Source: Pseudoalteromonas haloplanktis ATCC 14393
Lineage (GTDB): Bacteria; Pseudomonadota; Gammaproteobacteria; Enterobacterales; Alteromonadaceae
Direction of reading: 5' to 3'
DNA length: 64,000 nucleotides
Assembly: GCF_000238355.1 (NCBI RefSeq)
Contig: NZ_AHCA01000001.1
Location: 496,001 to 560,000 of the forward strand
The notes beneath the pieces are model-generated. The model saw only the letters and a list, made by a program, of their open reading frames with translations. It did not search any database and was not told the DNA's origin. Position 1 is the stretch's first letter. Every line of letters begins with the position of its first letter. Shown here in pieces: positions 25,009-31,145 of this stretch. Made by a program: the position numbers and the translations under genes.

Positions 25009-25160
25009 TTAAAACCTAACTGACTTAAAAGTAATTACACATATTGTACACCGCTATGCGTATGAATATAACCTTTACCTAAATGGGGTCAAGCTATGAG
25101 GTTTACCGCTGCTCTGCTAAGATAATAATTAAATTGAATAATTAGTTGAGTGTTTATTTA

Positions 25161-26243
25161 ATGCGATTATGGCGTATTTTTTGTATTTATTCTTTATTGT
25201 GTTTTTGCGCAACTACGCATGCCACTGTTAATGTTATTTTTATTAATCCAGGGTTTGATAAACAGCCTAGTACCGACGCGCAGAGTACCGGTGAATTCTG
25301 GTATAAAGTATCTAATATAATGCAAGCTGCCGCAGATGATCTAAATATTACTCTCACAACCCATTTCGCCAATCGAAATCATATAACAATGAAAGCACTT
25401 ATTGCAGATGCAATAAAGTCTAAGCCCGATTATTTAATTCTCGTTGATGAGAAAAAGGTCCTCAGTGATTATTTAACCACACTCAACACACATGATATTC
25501 CGATTTATTTTTTATTAAACAGACCTGATAAACTAAAGCTGAGCACTCTTAAGCAACGTAATGTCCACGTCATTGGTAGTGTAGTGCCTGGAAATCAAGA
25601 GGCTGGTAAACATTTAGCAACTTTACTATATCAACAACATAGCAAGATTAATTCAGGGACAATGAATCTCCTCGCATTACTTGGCGATTACACCACACCT
25701 GCGGCAATTAAACGACGTGCTGGTTTAGCTAACTTTCTATCTGAACACCCTGATGTGACACTTGTTGCAGAAGATGTTGCTCATTGGTCAAGGCAACAAA
25801 GCTATACAAAGACCTTTGCATATTTACAAACAGTGCCAAGTATTAATGCGATTTGGTGTGCCAATGATGCTATAGCCTTTGGCGCTGCCCATGCATTAAA
25901 TGCGCAGCAACGCAGAGACACTGCTGTCGTAGGTGGTTTCAATTGGGATAGCGCACCTGCTGAGGATACATACTTAGACATTTCTATGGGCGGGCATGTA
26001 TTATTGGGCGCATATGCGCTGTTAGCTATTTATGATGCGACTAAAAGGCCACAACAATTTGCCATACAGCACGAGGATTTAACCTTTTTTACACAAAAGA
26101 AACCGATGCTCCAGCCGCTTATCGAGCATATAAATGATGGCGAATTAGGTAAAATAAACTTTCTAAAATTCGCACGTAGCCAAGCAAACCATTTGATATT
26201 CACTGTCGAAAATCTATCTAAAGAGCTCAAAAACACACTGTAA
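25161..26243 (+). CDS. Orphan periplasmic sugar-binding-like protein (Peripla_BP_4 fold)
   Basis: 360 aa from ATG 25161; a TTG at 25146 would add five residues. Signal peptide (about 1-22: IFCIYSLLCFCATTHAT), then a periplasmic binding-protein type I fold: VNVIFINPGFDKQP, PDYLILVDEK, HVIGSVVPGNQEAGKHLATLL, GDYTTPAAIKRRAGLANFL, and AIWCANDAIAFGAAHAL followed by VGGFNWD. This is the LacI/GGBP core seen in sugar receptors. No permease, ATPase, chemoreceptor or sensor kinase is adjacent. It is convergent with the glucosylglycerate operon, which suggests a link to sugar metabolism; the ligand and partner are unknown. Confidence 0.78.
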   Translation: MRLWRIFCIYSLLCFCATTHATVNVIFINPGFDKQPSTDAQSTGEFWYKVSNIMQAAADDLNITLTTHFANRNHITMKALIADAIKSKPDYLILVDEKKVLSDYLTTLNTHDIPIYFLLNRPDKLKLSTLKQRNVHVIGSVVPGNQEAGKHLATLLYQQHSKINSGTMNLLALLGDYTTPAAIKRRAGLANFLSEHPDVTLVAEDVAHWSRQQSYTKTFAYLQTVPSINAIWCANDAIAFGAAHALNAQQRRDTAVVGGFNWDSAPAEDTYLDISMGGHVLLGAYALLAIYDATKRPQQFAIQHEDLTFFTQKKPMLQPLIEHINDGELGKINFLKFARSQANHLIFTVENLSKELKNTL

Positions 26244-26278
26244 AGGGGCTTTACAGTCATTTTTAAGCACGCTATACA

Positions 26279-28051
26279 TTATTCGCTATTCGACAACCAT
26301 AAACCTTGATACGGGCTAAGCTCAATAGTTTGTAGATCGTCAGACAGCTGAACTCCTTCGATTAATTCGTACCAATGTTCTGTTGCGATTAAATTTAGAT
26401 CAGCTAACAATAATTGCTGCGGTTGAGCACTGACATTATAAACGCAAAAAATACTTTGCCGTCTGTCGATACTTTGTCGCCAAAAACCAAATAGTGCGCC
26501 AGTTAAATGTAGGGTAAACTGAGTTGCATTAGGATGAAATGCAGGCTGCTTTATTCTAACTTTCAATAACTTACGAATGTTTTCAAACACCTGTGCATAG
26601 TGGCTACTAGTATCCGCTAATTTGTTAAGTAAATCAGCTTCTTGCCAACGGTGACGATTCACTGAACGGTTATGCTGAGTGTTATCAAAACGCACATAAT
26701 CATTGGTAGTTCCCATTAAGCTATGGATATAAAGCCCTGGGATCCCCTCCAGAGCAAACATAATGGCATGCGCACATAAAAACCGTTGTAGTCCCCACTT
26801 GTCTGGCCCTTGATGAGTTCCCTGCAACGCATCAAATAAAGCTATATTTAATTCATAAGGTGAGCTGGTACCATTTTCAGCAGTGCGCATCGACACTTTA
26901 CCGCCAAAACGACTGACCGTAGTAACCATTTTCGCTACTTCATTGTGATCTAATAACCCCTCAACAGGTCTTAAGCCAATACCATCGTGTGATGCAATAA
27001 AATTAAAGTATGCCGTGCCATTTTGTGCCGGCGGCATACTCATCATCCAATGTTTCAATGCTGCGCTGTCACCACTTAATAAAGTGTGTAAAAGTAAAGG
27101 CGGGAGTGAAAAGTTATAAATACAGTGCGCTTCATTGGCATTACCAAAGTAAGATAAGTTTTCACGATTAGGAATATTGGTTTCTGTGATGATCACCACA
27201 TTGGGCTCTACGTGCTCAATTAACGTTCTCAGTAGGCGGATCACCTCATGAGTTTGCGGTAAATTAATACAGGATGTATGCAACTGCTTCCATAAAAAGG
27301 CGACGGCATCTAAACGAAAAATTCGTACCCCATTGTCCAAATAATGACGAATAATACCGACAAACTCATTTAATACTTCTGGATTTTCGAAATCAAGATC
27401 AACTTGGTCATGGCTAAACGTACACCACACATGGCGATCTCCTACTGCCGTTTGCACTGTATTTAATAATGGTGATGTGCGTGGTCTAACAACCTGTGAT
27501 AAATCATCTGCTAGGCTTGCCGTTTTAAAATAACTTAACCCCGGCTCCTTGCCCTGTAAAAAGTTTTCAAACCACCGGCTGCGACTTGAACAGTGATTGA
27601 TCACTAAGTCTGCCATTAGTTTCACATCGTTCGCAATTGCTTGAATATCCTGCCAGCTCCCGAGTGACTCGTTCACCTGTACATAACTCATCACCGAAAA
27701 CCCTTCATCTGAGCTATACGGATAAAATGGCAGAATATGTAAAGAATTAATATAATCTGCACACTGAGTTTTAATAAAGCGATGCAAGGTATGTAATGGT
27801 GGCTCTATTGGGTTTGGCACAGCATCTGCAGCATCATTAAAGCGCATGATAGAATCACCGTAGGCGATTAAAATAATATCCTGCTCACTCCAGCGATTTT
27901 TATGAGGTGTAGGATCACGAACCGCATCATCTTTTAGCATAGTAGTAATAAGCTGGTTTGCTAATTGTGATAGGCTTACACCAAGATTACTGTCAGCGTA
28001 AATTGTTTCTAAGTGCTGCTCAACGCGTTGCTGTAATAACTCTCTGCTCAT
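26279..28051 (-). CDS. GH13 sucrose-phosphorylase-type enzyme, probable glucosylglycerate phosphorylase
   Basis: 590 aa. GH13 subfamily 18-type alpha-glucoside phosphorylase. The catalytic residues are visible: nucleophile Asp248 in [10 protein letters not shown], acid/base Glu290 in [10 protein letters not shown], and transition-state Asp356 in FIASHDGIG, with the earlier DLVINHCS block. Because the gene sits with a glucosyl-3-phosphoglycerate synthase and a matching phosphatase, the likely reaction is glucosylglycerate + phosphate to glucose-1-phosphate + D-glycerate, rather than sucrose phosphorolysis. This is inferred from context. It is the last gene of the operon, starting 19 bases after the GpgS stop. 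Confidence 0.82.
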
Positions 28052-28070
28052 TATTAACCTCTTTGTTCAC

Positions 28071-29294
28071 TTACGATGAAAACTCTTTATTATCAAGTTC
28101 AACCGCTTCTTCCAAACGCGCAAACACATCTGGCATCGCTGAAGCTACGCGGTTCCAACTTGGCACAAACGGCGCTTCCATCGGGTGTTGCAAAAAATGC
28201 TGCCCTGCATTCATGATGTTTTGTGCGAACATTTCAACGGCTTTTTCTTCTTGATGAATATCGAGCTTTAAACCATTCATCATGGCATCGTTATGGTAGG
28301 TTTCGATAAAATCCAGCGCAATTCGGTAATACGTTGCTTTTAGAGAACGAATGGTTTCAGTGGTAAATGTCACCCCTTGCGTGGCTAACTTACGAAATAG
28401 CGCTTTAGTAATGTCTATCGACATTTTCGATAGGCCAGCCGCTTGGTTATCCAATGACAAAGTTTGGTGTTTATGATCATAGTTATCTGCGATATCGACT
28501 TGGCATAAGCGATTGTGCGAGTAGTTACGGTACATTTCTGATAATACGCCAATTTCTAACCCCCAATCACTAGGTATGCGAATATCGTTTAATACATCAC
28601 GGCGAAACGAAAACTCCCCCGCCAATGGGTAACGAAATGAATCCATATACTCTAAATAATCGGTGCTGCCTAAAATCGTTTTAAATGAGCGTAACAATGG
28701 CGTTACTAATAAGCGTGAAACACGGCCATTGATTTTGCCGTCTGCGGTTCGCGGGTAGAAACCTTTACAAAATTCATAATTAAAGCGTGGATGGGCAACC
28801 GGATAAATTAACCGTGCCAATAAGCTACGGTCATACGTTAAAATATCACAATCATGTAACGCTATAGATTCGACTTTTGCGGTTGCTAACTTATAACCCA
28901 TGCAATACCAAACATTACGGCCCTTCCCAAGTTCTCGCGGCGCTACACCGAGCGTTTGCAATTCTTTGTCAAGCGCTTGCAAGCGTGGCCCTTCATTCCA
29001 TAAAACACGGTGGTGTTGGCCAAGCTCCGCAAAAAATTGTAACGCATGACGATATTGGCTTTCATCAGCTCTATCTAAACCAATTGTAATTTGTGATAAA
29101 TAAGGCACATGTTTAAGCTCTTTGATGATATTTTGCAGTGCAGGACCTTCAAGTTCACTGTAAAGAGATGGCAAGATCAAACCCATTGGTCGTTGCTCTG
29201 AAAAACGAACCAATTCAGCTTCGATATCTTCAAGTGGTCGATCGGCAATATTATGTAACGTTGTAATGATGCCATTTTGATAAAAATCAGCCAT
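28071..29294 (-). CDS. gpgS: Glucosyl-3-phosphoglycerate synthase-like glycosyltransferase (GT81 type)
   Basis: 407 aa. The sequence GLILPSLYSELEGPALQNIIKEL, followed by LSQITIGLDRADESQY, GKGRNVWYCMGYKLATA and the metal site SIALHDCDILTYDR, matches GpgS-type enzymes. These transfer glucose from NDP-glucose to 3-phosphoglycerate. Later AGEFSFRRDVLNDIRIPSDWGLEIGVLSEMY contains the usual E-x7-E-like acceptor region. It is the second gene of the operon, overlapping the kinase-phosphatase gene by 8 bases and 19 bases ahead of the phosphorylase. The product glucosyl-3-phosphoglycerate would be dephosphorylated by the HAD domain encoded just upstream. Mannosyl-type activity cannot be excluded. Confidence 0.85.
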   Translation of the reverse strand: MADFYQNGIITTLHNIADRPLEDIEAELVRFSEQRPMGLILPSLYSELEGPALQNIIKELKHVPYLSQITIGLDRADESQYRHALQFFAELGQHHRVLWNEGPRLQALDKELQTLGVAPRELGKGRNVWYCMGYKLATAKVESIALHDCDILTYDRSLLARLIYPVAHPRFNYEFCKGFYPRTADGKINGRVSRLLVTPLLRSFKTILGSTDYLEYMDSFRYPLAGEFSFRRDVLNDIRIPSDWGLEIGVLSEMYRNYSHNRLCQVDIADNYDHKHQTLSLDNQAAGLSKMSIDITKALFRKLATQGVTFTTETIRSLKATYYRIALDFIETYHNDAMMNGLKLDIHQEEKAVEMFAQNIMNAGQHFLQHPMEAPFVPSWNRVASAMPDVFARLEEAVELDNKEFSS

Positions 29295-31029
29295 GTGATT
29301 GCTCCTGTTTAGACGCTAGTTGCGCTTTGATAACACTTAAATCGGACACTTCGTCTATCCAACCTTGCGGTGCGGGATGTTCACTGAGTAACCAAGGTTT
29401 ATGAGCTAACTTGGCTTTTGCTTTACTTGCTGGGTTATTAATTAAAATTGCAATATCTGCTTCGTCGAGCATCGCCATGTCGTTTTGACTATCACCTAAA
29501 GCAATGGTGGTGAAAGAATAGCGATAATGTTGTTTAAACTGATTAAGTAGCCAATTTTGAGCAATCCCTTTATTAGTATTGCGATTAAGGTGAATAAAAC
29601 GCCCACCTATTAACACCTCATACTCAAGCGGTTTTATCGCTTCTAAAAAGTCCAACAGTTGCTGCTCTGTCCCTTGCCAAAATAACGGATCTGAATACTC
29701 CCGAATGCGTGCAAGCTCACTTTGCTCAATACTCAGCCCCGTAATTTGACTGACTTCTTGTGCAGATAATTGACTAAATAAACGATAATAATCACTAAAC
29801 TCATGAGCATGAGTATGTAGCTCTTGCTGTAATTGCTTACAACTAGGCGATAATGCATAACGCCAATGCTCATCGAGCTCTTCACATCCTATGGGTTTGA
29901 GGTCAAAATAAAATTTAGGGATATAAACTGCGGAACCGTTTTCGATTATAAAAGGTTGGTTATGCCCTAATGATTTTTGTAATGCATTTACCTCTGCAAA
30001 AGTTTTACTAGTATTAAAGATAACAGTAATACCAGCTGTCGTTAATTCTGTTAAAAACGGTTTTATTTCATCGCAGTGGTAATCATTATGATCAAGTAAT
30101 GTCCCGTCTAAGTCGGTAAAAATAAGCGGCATGGAGGTATCATCAGCACGTAACTTCATAGACGCAATATCACGCGACTTATCTAATACTAATAATGCAT
30201 CAGCATGCTCTGGTAACTGGCTTAAGTTTTCTCGGGTAATTCGCTCAAAATGAGAGATAAAACGCACTAGCTGCGTTTCATCAAATGTGCCTTTCCCCGC
30301 CCCTTTTTTATTTAATAACTTTTGTTCTTGCTCTAACCGCCAGCCATAGACATCTGCAAACGACGGCGCTTTAAGCATTACCGTGTAATCAATCATAGCA
30401 AATACATCTTGGTACTCATTGGCTAAGCAGCTATTCACACAACGTCGCCAAATCCCTTCTGAGTCTTCATGTTCTTCTAATTGATTTACGGGCTGATGTA
30501 ATTGATACGGCTGCTGTGCTTCACTGCCAACGCACCAGCCTTCAAAAATGATAATATCTACCGCTAGCTCAGTGACAGGCCATAACGATTTTTCAATCGG
30601 ATCGTCTGTTCTCTTATCAAACTTAGGCAATGAAACACTGCTTTTACCTTGTAACAATTCGCTGAAAGTATGTTTCATTAAAGCGGTATCATGGGTACCT
30701 GGCACACCACGAGTGGCAAACAAAGGATGAACATCTTGTGCCAGTTGCAAACGATGCTCTCGGCTGTGATAAAAATCATCAATCGATATCGCGATACTGT
30801 TTAAAGTCGTATTACAATTAAACCAAGTAACTAAAAAGTCAGCTAGGGTTGATTTACCCGAGCCTTGACAACCGTTTATAGCCACCAGCATTGGTCGCCC
30901 AGTTGGTTTAAAACGAAGAATATCTTCTGCTAACGGCACAAAATACTGCTCGCTTAAATATTGGTATTTAAGGGGTAGCTGATGCTTTGCTAAAAACGGG
31001 GTAATATCCACAATATTGGCCTCTTGCAT
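29287..31029 (-). CDS. Fusion of D-glycerate 3-kinase (P-loop) and glucosyl-3-phosphoglycerate phosphatase (HAD)
   Basis: 580 aa, two enzymes in one chain. Residues about 1-295 form a P-loop kinase like glycerate 3-kinase/YggC: Walker A GCQGSGKST (53-61), then SIDDFYHSREHR and a FEGWCVG strand. Residues about 300-575 form an HAD-IIB phosphatase: DLDGTLLD with nucleophile Asp306 and Asp308, FNTSKTFAEV for motif II, and GDSQNDMAMLDEAD for the metal site; this domain resembles mannosyl/glucosyl-3-phosphoglycerate phosphatases. Predicted joint role: the kinase makes 3-phosphoglycerate from glycerate and the phosphatase removes phosphate from glucosyl-3-phosphoglycerate. It is the first gene of the operon. 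The fusion is seen directly; the substrates are inferred from neighbours. Confidence 0.84.
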   Translation of the reverse strand: MQEANIVDITPFLAKHQLPLKYQYLSEQYFVPLAEDILRFKPTGRPMLVAINGCQGSGKSTLADFLVTWFNCNTTLNSIAISIDDFYHSREHRLQLAQDVHPLFATRGVPGTHDTALMKHTFSELLQGKSSVSLPKFDKRTDDPIEKSLWPVTELAVDIIIFEGWCVGSEAQQPYQLHQPVNQLEEHEDSEGIWRRCVNSCLANEYQDVFAMIDYTVMLKAPSFADVYGWRLEQEQKLLNKKGAGKGTFDETQLVRFISHFERITRENLSQLPEHADALLVLDKSRDIASMKLRADDTSMPLIFTDLDGTLLDHNDYHCDEIKPFLTELTTAGITVIFNTSKTFAEVNALQKSLGHNQPFIIENGSAVYIPKFYFDLKPIGCEELDEHWRYALSPSCKQLQQELHTHAHEFSDYYRLFSQLSAQEVSQITGLSIEQSELARIREYSDPLFWQGTEQQLLDFLEAIKPLEYEVLIGGRFIHLNRNTNKGIAQNWLLNQFKQHYRYSFTTIALGDSQNDMAMLDEADIAILINNPASKAKAKLAHKPWLLSEHPAPQGWIDEVSDLSVIKAQLASKQEQSHG

Positions 31030-31113: not shown

Positions 31114-31145
31114 TAAAAAAATAGCGCATTTAAAATGCGCTATTA
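31114..31145 (-). terminator. Terminator of the upp-uraA operon
   Basis: ATAGCGCATTT paired with AAATGCGCTAT around a one-base loop, followed on the minus strand by TTTTTTT. It lies 32 bases after the uraA stop. The same 147-base gap also contains the start region of the glucosylglycerate operon, which is read away to the left. Confidence 0.85.

Follow-up and report, generated by a model that had tools for sequence, protein, structure and literature searches.

A fused kinase–phosphatase in a putative operon for making and recycling glucosylglycerate in Pseudoalteromonas haloplanktis

Results

In the 64,000-nucleotide stretch of the Pseudoalteromonas haloplanktis ATCC 14393 genome analysed here (the window; contig NZ_AHCA01000001.1, positions 496,001 to 560,000), three minus-strand open reading frames run head to tail from 31029 to 26279. 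They encode a 580-amino acid (aa) fusion protein, then a 407-aa GpgS-like protein and then a 590-aa phosphorylase-like protein. We consider it likely, from domain families and gene context, that this operon both makes and unmakes 2-O-alpha-glucosyl-D-glycerate, the protective sugar-acid glucosylglycerate, with the fusion joining the phosphatase of synthesis to the kinase of salvage. The protein would offer an easily tested example of a single chain that carries opposing steps of the same cycle, two in number.

An earlier reading of this DNA, made from the sequence alone, had proposed an operon with a kinase–phosphatase fusion, a GpgS-like transferase and a GH13 phosphorylase, and the open reading frames and family matches bear this out. 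The arrangement is not due to chance, since the identical gene order is found in dozens of relatives. Genes for the kinase, GpgS, the phosphatase GpgP and the glucosylglycerate phosphorylase GGaP thus stand together at this locus, as in the known glucosylglycerate gene cluster. The features of the operon are:

29287-31029, minus strand: gene for the 580-aa fusion of a kinase half and a phosphatase half
30142..31029, minus strand: kinase half (aa 1-296), predicted class III (GLYK-type) D-glycerate kinase domain, from PDB matches, profile, Foldseek and invariant columns
29287..30132, minus strand: phosphatase half (aa 300-580), predicted MpgP/GpgP-type HAD-IIB phosphatase, from TIGR01486, 1xvi/1wzc/3ztw and Foldseek
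28071-29294, minus strand: GpgS-like glucosyl-3-phosphoglycerate synthase (407 aa), overlapping the fusion gene by 8 base pairs (bp), from NF040724 and 7p5l/7pdo
26279-28051, minus strand: GH13_18 glucosylglycerate phosphorylase-like protein (590 aa), 19 bp after the GpgS gene, with TETN at aa 289 and PYELN at aa 398

Domain families of the operon products

With the kinase half as query, phmmer matched only three PDB sequences at E<=1e-3 (1odf, 6ckg and 7xpc), which are D-glycerate 3-kinases or their yeast homologue. A profile built from 16 aligned sequences reached the D-glycerate 3-kinase structures at 2e-28 (6ckg), 1e-25 (7xpc) and 1e-23 (the third), compared with 4e-5 for uridine-cytidine kinase and 3e-3 for pantothenate kinase. 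In a Foldseek search with a model of the whole fusion, the GLYK-type structures 7xpc, 1odf and 6ckg ranked ahead of pantothenate kinases, behind MpgP and YedP structures. The kinase half carries a Walker A motif (GCQGSGKS, aa 53-60), and its P-loop, DDFY, RG-x-PGTHD-like and EGW blocks align with those of class III D-glycerate 3-kinase (GLYK; 7xpc, 6ckg), whose fold is alike. The P-loop and the HAD motifs of the phosphatase half are invariant across 16 aligned sequences, that of the window included. Identity as a uridine or pantothenate kinase was tried and rejected (PRK05480, 25.9 against a cut-off of 180 bits; panK_bact, 29.4 against 235). The kinase half is therefore assigned by sequence to the class III, plant/yeast-type D-glycerate kinase family, with 3-phosphoglycerate as its predicted product. 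According to excerpts of the literature, class III kinases occur in plants, yeast, algae and some cyanobacteria (PMC10970406) and make 3-phosphoglycerate; other bacterial glycerate kinase types, both E. coli enzymes included, make 2-phosphoglycerate (PMC10970406, PMC4378991). In contrast to the window protein, a phosphatase fusion is absent from the excerpted text of PMC10970406 on class III kinases.

Residues 302-564 match the MPGP subfamily TIGR01486 at 215.3 bits, above its cut-off of 164.75, and phmmer matched the phosphatase half to the PDB entries 1xvi, 1wzc and 3ztw. In agreement, MpgP and YedP structures took the top Foldseek ranks for the fusion model, 3ztw with a template modelling (TM) score of 0.87 by target length. 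The AlphaFold model of the 580-aa protein has a mean predicted local distance difference test score of 85 and a predicted TM-score of 0.67, the latter leaving the relative placement of the domains unsure. The HAD motifs lie at aa 306-310 (DLDGT) and 512-517 (GDSQND). Motifs I and IV are present in all 75 phosphatase-bearing members of a set of 79 named loci, all distinct, taken from the best 80 of 299 matches to an alignment of fused proteins. A named ortholog is publicly annotated as 'HAD-IIB family hydrolase', a label that misses the kinase and that our assignment corrects.

The 407-aa protein matches NF040724 (GpgS_Meth) at 359.7 bits (E 1.7e-107) over model positions 2-402 of 402, as well as the GpgS structures 7p5l/7pdo (E 9.6e-7). 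It has a DCD metal-type motif, and a DxD-type pattern is present in 71 of 71 relatives longer than 380 aa. The 590-aa protein is GH13_18-like. According to excerpts of Franceus and Desmet 2020 (PMC7178133), GGaP sequences are marked by (T/S)ETN at strand beta-5 and by a loop-A Glu where most other clades have Gln. Both marks are found in the window protein (TETN at aa 289; loop-A Glu in PYELN at aa 398), and (T/S)ETN with loop-A YE.N is present in all 70 named phosphorylase frames longer than 500 aa. A sucrose phosphorylase was considered and rejected (TIGR03852, 180.9 against a cut-off of 334.4 bits), the GGaP motifs being present instead. Sucrose-phosphorylase-like residues (AEIH; DLYQ, in DLYQVN) are found in the second GH13_18 protein of the window genome (G000:C55:888270-889475, L004). 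A 721-aa phosphorylase-like frame with a C-terminal cupin-like extension, judged by eye, was also seen in another genome (G255; L183:4996-7161); this genome gave no GpgS match at 1e-40, and a nearby 342-aa frame matches GpgS weakly.

These results agree with the domain assignments of the sequence-only reading, which had predicted a D-glycerate 3-kinase in the N-terminal half, a GpgP/MpgP phosphatase in the C-terminal half, a GpgS-like transferase and a phosphorylase that, as its motifs suggest, is of the glucosylglycerate rather than the sucrose type. A kinase of the uridine or pantothenate type, which it had named as the outcome that would speak against it, is not favoured by the profile search.

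A predicted make-and-recycle pathway

From these domain families we infer the substrates, products and direction of flux as follows. For synthesis, GpgS would couple nucleoside diphosphate-glucose to 3-phosphoglycerate, after which the fusion's C-terminal domain would strip the phosphate, rendering synthesis irreversible. For breakdown, the GH13_18 phosphorylase would convert glucosylglycerate and phosphate to glucose-1-phosphate and D-glycerate; phosphorylation of the glycerate by the fusion's N-terminal domain would draw the reversible phosphorolysis towards breakdown. One polypeptide would thus hold the committing steps of both opposite directions. The 3-phosphoglycerate formed by the kinase would go back to glycolysis or to GpgS; with a kinase of the class III type, its re-entry into GpgS could close the loop that the sequence-only reading had drawn, and a buffered cycle or a carbon store is possible.

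Glycerate kinase families across pathway genomes

Two samples were examined, one of 60 genomes (the window genome and 59 relatives) and one of 369 genomes of the class, in which at most three candidates per genome were scored for the fusion profile, so that matches may be missed. Glycerate kinases of the PF02595, MOFRL and DUF4147 types are all absent from the window genome, and none of the 15 class genomes that hold all four parts (kinase, phosphatase, GpgS and phosphorylase) has a PF02595 or DUF4147 match. Of 28 class genomes that have the phosphatase and GpgS and lack the class III kinase, 25 do carry a PF02595 or DUF4147 kinase (DUF4147 only, 14; PF02595 only, 10; both, 1), and in four of these (G111, G112, G237 and G251) a PF02595 gene lies less than 1 kb from the phosphatase or phosphorylase gene. 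We take PF02595 to be the class I and DUF4147/MOFRL the class II glycerate kinase, the three classes presumably having unrelated folds.

A fusion with another kinase family was found in one of these 25 genomes, G335, where an MpgP-like phosphatase is joined to a DUF4147/MOFRL kinase in one open frame of 720 aa with the opposite domain order (L173:7552-9714). Its neighbours are a mechanosensitive-channel-type gene, a mannosylglycerate-synthase-like glycosyltransferase gene and a GpgS gene. No further MOFRL–phosphatase fusion was found in the other 7 genomes of the same order, and no plasmid record had one place covering 80% of the query.

Because pathway genomes without the class III kinase mostly carry other glycerate kinase families, we read the kinase as serving glycerate salvage rather than as an obligatory first step. 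What these genomes share is a glycerate kinase, whichever its family, in keeping with recovery of the glycerate that would be freed by the phosphorylase. The sequence-only reading had made glycerate phosphorylation the first step of synthesis; we prefer to place it at the end of breakdown, since related genomes carry kinase types whose reported product is 2-phosphoglycerate. 2-Phosphoglycerate is not a GpgS acceptor, and 3-phosphoglycerate is available from glycolysis. That a glycerate kinase is tied to the pathway in three Pfam or structural families, in two of them as a fusion with the phosphatase, counts as genomic evidence for a phosphorylase running towards breakdown and for recovery of the released glycerate.

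Distribution of the gene set

In the first sample the fusion was found in 16 of 60 genomes, all 16 with GpgS and a close phosphorylase. Separate side-by-side kinase and phosphatase genes occur in 3 (G049, G051 and G054), the phosphatase and GpgS without the kinase in another 3 (G043, G045 and G052), and the kinase alone, without GpgS, in 16 genomes of the same genus. In the class sample, the kinase was found in 41 genomes, the phosphatase in 45, GpgS in 46 and the phosphorylase in 49; all four parts occur together in 15, all but the kinase in 26, the kinase alone in 25 and other combinations in 11. Genomes with GpgS nearly always have the phosphatase (43/46) and the phosphorylase (44/46). Where the kinase and GpgS occur together, the kinase lies within the cluster in 15 of 16 genomes and on another contig in G097. 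Among the 15 four-part genomes, kinase and phosphatase are fused in 3 (G000, G198 and G219), adjacent in 11 and on different contigs in 1 (G097). Marine Gammaproteobacteria repeatedly show the order kinase–phosphatase–GpgS–phosphorylase, in which the kinase and phosphatase genes are either neighbours or fused.

The kinase is not dedicated to the pathway, as 25 of the 41 kinase-bearing class genomes lack the other three genes at the thresholds used. The slot after upp-uraA, which holds the window operon, contains the kinase alone in two congeners and in Pseudoalteromonas sp. HL-AS2 (L045:8664-9539, L046:7493-8362 and L225:6001-6873). The kinase-only congener genes are 57-59% identical to the N-terminal half of the window protein. 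The two congeners have no GpgS and no close phosphorylase anywhere in their genomes; for HL-AS2, the slot only was examined. The ratio of nonsynonymous to synonymous changes in the kinase-only genes is about 0.09 for the two more distant pairs and 0.32 for the near-copies L045 and L225, which differ by few changes. By eye, no remnants of other pathway genes were seen downstream of L045 and L046 (three forward frames, about 0.4 kb; no low-threshold search was run). The pathway genes may have been lost from these slots or may have arrived later. In a Thalassotalea metagenome-assembled genome the kinase is directly followed by the phosphorylase (L138:5938-8654), with no phosphatase or GpgS match within 12.9 kb; this looks like a breakdown-only pair.

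Several observations weigh against the make-and-recycle reading. In 25 of the 369 class genomes the kinase is present with none of the other three genes, and it stands alone at the same locus in congeners. Three of the 28 genomes with phosphatase and GpgS lack all three kinase families (G067, 75% complete; G107, 88%; G331, 98%). The contrast in kinase family was drawn among pathway genomes only, and its Fisher p of 5e-9 ignores kinship. When kinship was taken into account, starred branches offered 3 independent pairs, of which an average of 2.9 ran in the expected direction (median p 0.25), and with only 3 such pairs the test cannot reach significance. G335 has GpgS and no phosphorylase match at the threshold used, so that salvage there would need another glycerate source. 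The P-loop pattern is present in 75 of the 78 kinases of the named loci, leaving 3 exceptions. For the partner proteins, the phosphatase half falls under the equivalog cut-offs (e.g. NF001218, 282 against 362 bits), its glucosyl or mannosyl substrate is indistinguishable by sequence, and the GpgS-like protein is below the NF040724 cut-off of 700 bits.

Fused and separate states of kinase and phosphatase

Kinase and phosphatase are fused in 48 of the 79 named loci, a fraction that is no population estimate because the loci were drawn from matches to fused proteins. In the remainder they are adjacent genes (26), the kinase frame is broken (1), the kinase stands alone (3) or the kinase is accompanied by the phosphorylase (1). 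The sequence-only reading had called the fusion unusual; the fusion is confirmed, and it is not unique. Of the 74 complete loci, 60 entered a GpgS tree (14 near-copies dropped; L097 and L146 (G213) not in the tree), on which the fused state showed 7 changes (bootstrap 6-8), of which at least 4 are forced; 0% of 200 bootstrap trees had a single change. These changes may be gains or losses. On a kinase tree (built with the phosphatase part retained in 13 fused rows, with columns filled in <30% of rows removed and with L097 excluded) the count of 11 changes is rough and was not used, because row L146 (G213) had been entered as fused and is two genes. The fused kinase of Moritella groups with the stand-alone kinase of the same-group genome G036 (support 98, quick tree). 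Repeated joining or splitting among relatives hints that joining matters.

In the record of Methylophaga thiooxydans, the kinase–phosphatase frame is broken within the kinase half (L097:5992-7755); five other Methylophaga-labelled loci are fused without a break (L101, L104, L105, L106 and L116 among them).

Discussion

Alternative explanations

The strongest competitor concerns the fusion and not the pathway: the joining could be a neutral by-product of tightly adjacent genes, with the two functions uncoupled. We regard this as a serious possibility, somewhat short of probable. Fusion of adjacent genes can be neutral, a point that also counts against our reading; many unfused relatives have a kinase–phosphatase spacing of 0 to -4 bp, and in G213 (L181:112-1857) the two genes share a frame with a single stop between them, a state next to fusion. 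However, the phosphatase–GpgS and GpgS–phosphorylase junctions are about as tight, yet neither is fused in any locus (0/75 and, among the loci of those 75 that have the phosphorylase, 0/70). The at least 4 changes of state, the fusion with an other-family kinase and the existence of phosphatase–synthase fusions for a related solute (ggpPS, in excerpts of PMC10873239) also argue against a neutral origin. The physical linkage may carry some benefit. One form that it might take, rather doubtful in our view, is a bifunctional control enzyme in which ligands of one domain (glycerate, 3-phosphoglycerate or ATP) set the activity of the other and so decide between storage and spending. If true, the recurrent fusion, including that to an other-family kinase, would be convergent evolution of that switch, with a logic like that of other metabolic kinase/phosphatase pairs.

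A different account of the kinase would have it mainly make 3-phosphoglycerate from free glycerate for GpgS, the fusion then uniting steps 1 and 3 of synthesis. The product reported for class III kinases in excerpts of PMC10970406 and PMC4378991 is indeed the GpgS acceptor, the kinase stands first in the gene order, and G335 has its phosphatase–kinase fusion without a phosphorylase match. We nevertheless consider this account unlikely: in other pathway genomes the kinases belong to PF02595 or DUF4147/MOFRL, types with 2-phosphoglycerate as the reported product, glycolysis supplies 3-phosphoglycerate anyway, and G107 has phosphatase and GpgS with neither a phosphorylase match nor a kinase of the three families. 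The place of the gene, fused or alone, after upp-uraA in one Pseudoalteromonas lineage might point to another substrate of the N-terminal domain, such as a nucleoside. This is very improbable, given that profile E-values are at least 20 orders of magnitude better for D-glycerate 3-kinase than for uridine-cytidine kinase, upp adjoins in only 4 of 20 compared relative loci (L045, L046, L063 and L064), the permease gene and the operon are separated by a terminator-like hairpin, and the exchange with other glycerate kinase families suggests glycerate as the substrate. We hold it to be just as improbable that the product is mannosylglycerate rather than glucosylglycerate. The phosphatase does score best with MpgP models and structures; however, the synthase fits GpgS_Meth and GpgS structures best (an MpgS structure reached 1.5e-4, against 9.6e-7), and the phosphorylase bears the glucosylglycerate marks.

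Relation to known systems

Neither the gene set nor a make-and-recycle reading is new: both have been published, as excerpts of PMC7178133 and PMC11631117 make clear. Franceus and Desmet 2020 (PMC7178133) describe GGaP genes as often occurring with a gene for a glycerate kinase, GpgS or GpgP, the same gene set as in the window operon. In contrast, the excerpted text uses 'fused' once, of an engineered enzyme, does not contain 'fusion' or 'bifunctional', and leaves the class of the kinase unstated. It also describes the metabolic function of GGaP as experimentally unconfirmed and the enzyme as the only known possible sink of glucosylglycerate in many producers. For Prochlorococcus, synthesis of glucosylglycerate and its recycling to glucose-1-phosphate and 3-phosphoglycerate have been drawn as a pathway with an operon (PMC11631117). 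This is a make-and-recycle pathway as proposed here; it differs in being cyanobacterial and in having a transporter gene, and no fused kinase–phosphatase is mentioned in the excerpted text.

Two known fusions resemble the window protein. GgpPS, the glucosylglycerol-phosphate phosphatase-synthase, joins a solute phosphatase to an enzyme of the same pathway, with an adjoining phosphorylase gene; according to excerpts of PMC10873239, however, it fuses two successive synthetic steps, whereas the window protein would combine a synthetic with a presumed salvage step. The bifunctional mannosyl-3-phosphoglycerate synthase/phosphatase (NF011072) also has an MpgP-type domain within a fusion, but its partner is the synthase and not a kinase, and the window protein (124.5 bits) is under its cut-off of 762. 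The open-access literature searched, including PMC7178133 and PMC11009771, yielded no mention of the kinase–phosphatase fusion, and mention elsewhere is possible. What our comparison adds is the recurring gene order, about 7 changes of the fused state, the kinase-family swap and the MOFRL-type fusion.

Genomic surroundings

The operon is preceded on its own strand by a uracil permease gene and upp. Two terminator-like hairpins, called by pattern scan, flank the operon; the scanned region has 6 such sites against 5.3 expected in shuffles, so both calls rest on position and stem:

31120..31144, minus strand: hairpin with an 11-bp stem and T tail, between the uracil permease gene and the operon
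26237..26257, both strands: hairpin separating the phosphorylase gene from the convergent plus-strand gene

The upstream hairpin suggests that the operon transcript is separate from that of upp-uraA. The convergent plus-strand gene (25146-26243) encodes a protein with a periplasmic sugar-binding-type domain and is probably unrelated to the operon, since its cluster is present in 1 of 20 compared relative loci (L064).

Among the matches listed, the nearest named relatives of the 580-aa protein are in two Pseudoalteromonas prydzensis records (93-94% identity). Six Pseudoalteromonas records place the full-length fusion on a replicon of 0.79-0.91 Mb that is filed as a plasmid, and the 1.0-Mb contig of the window is therefore probably the same kind of second replicon.

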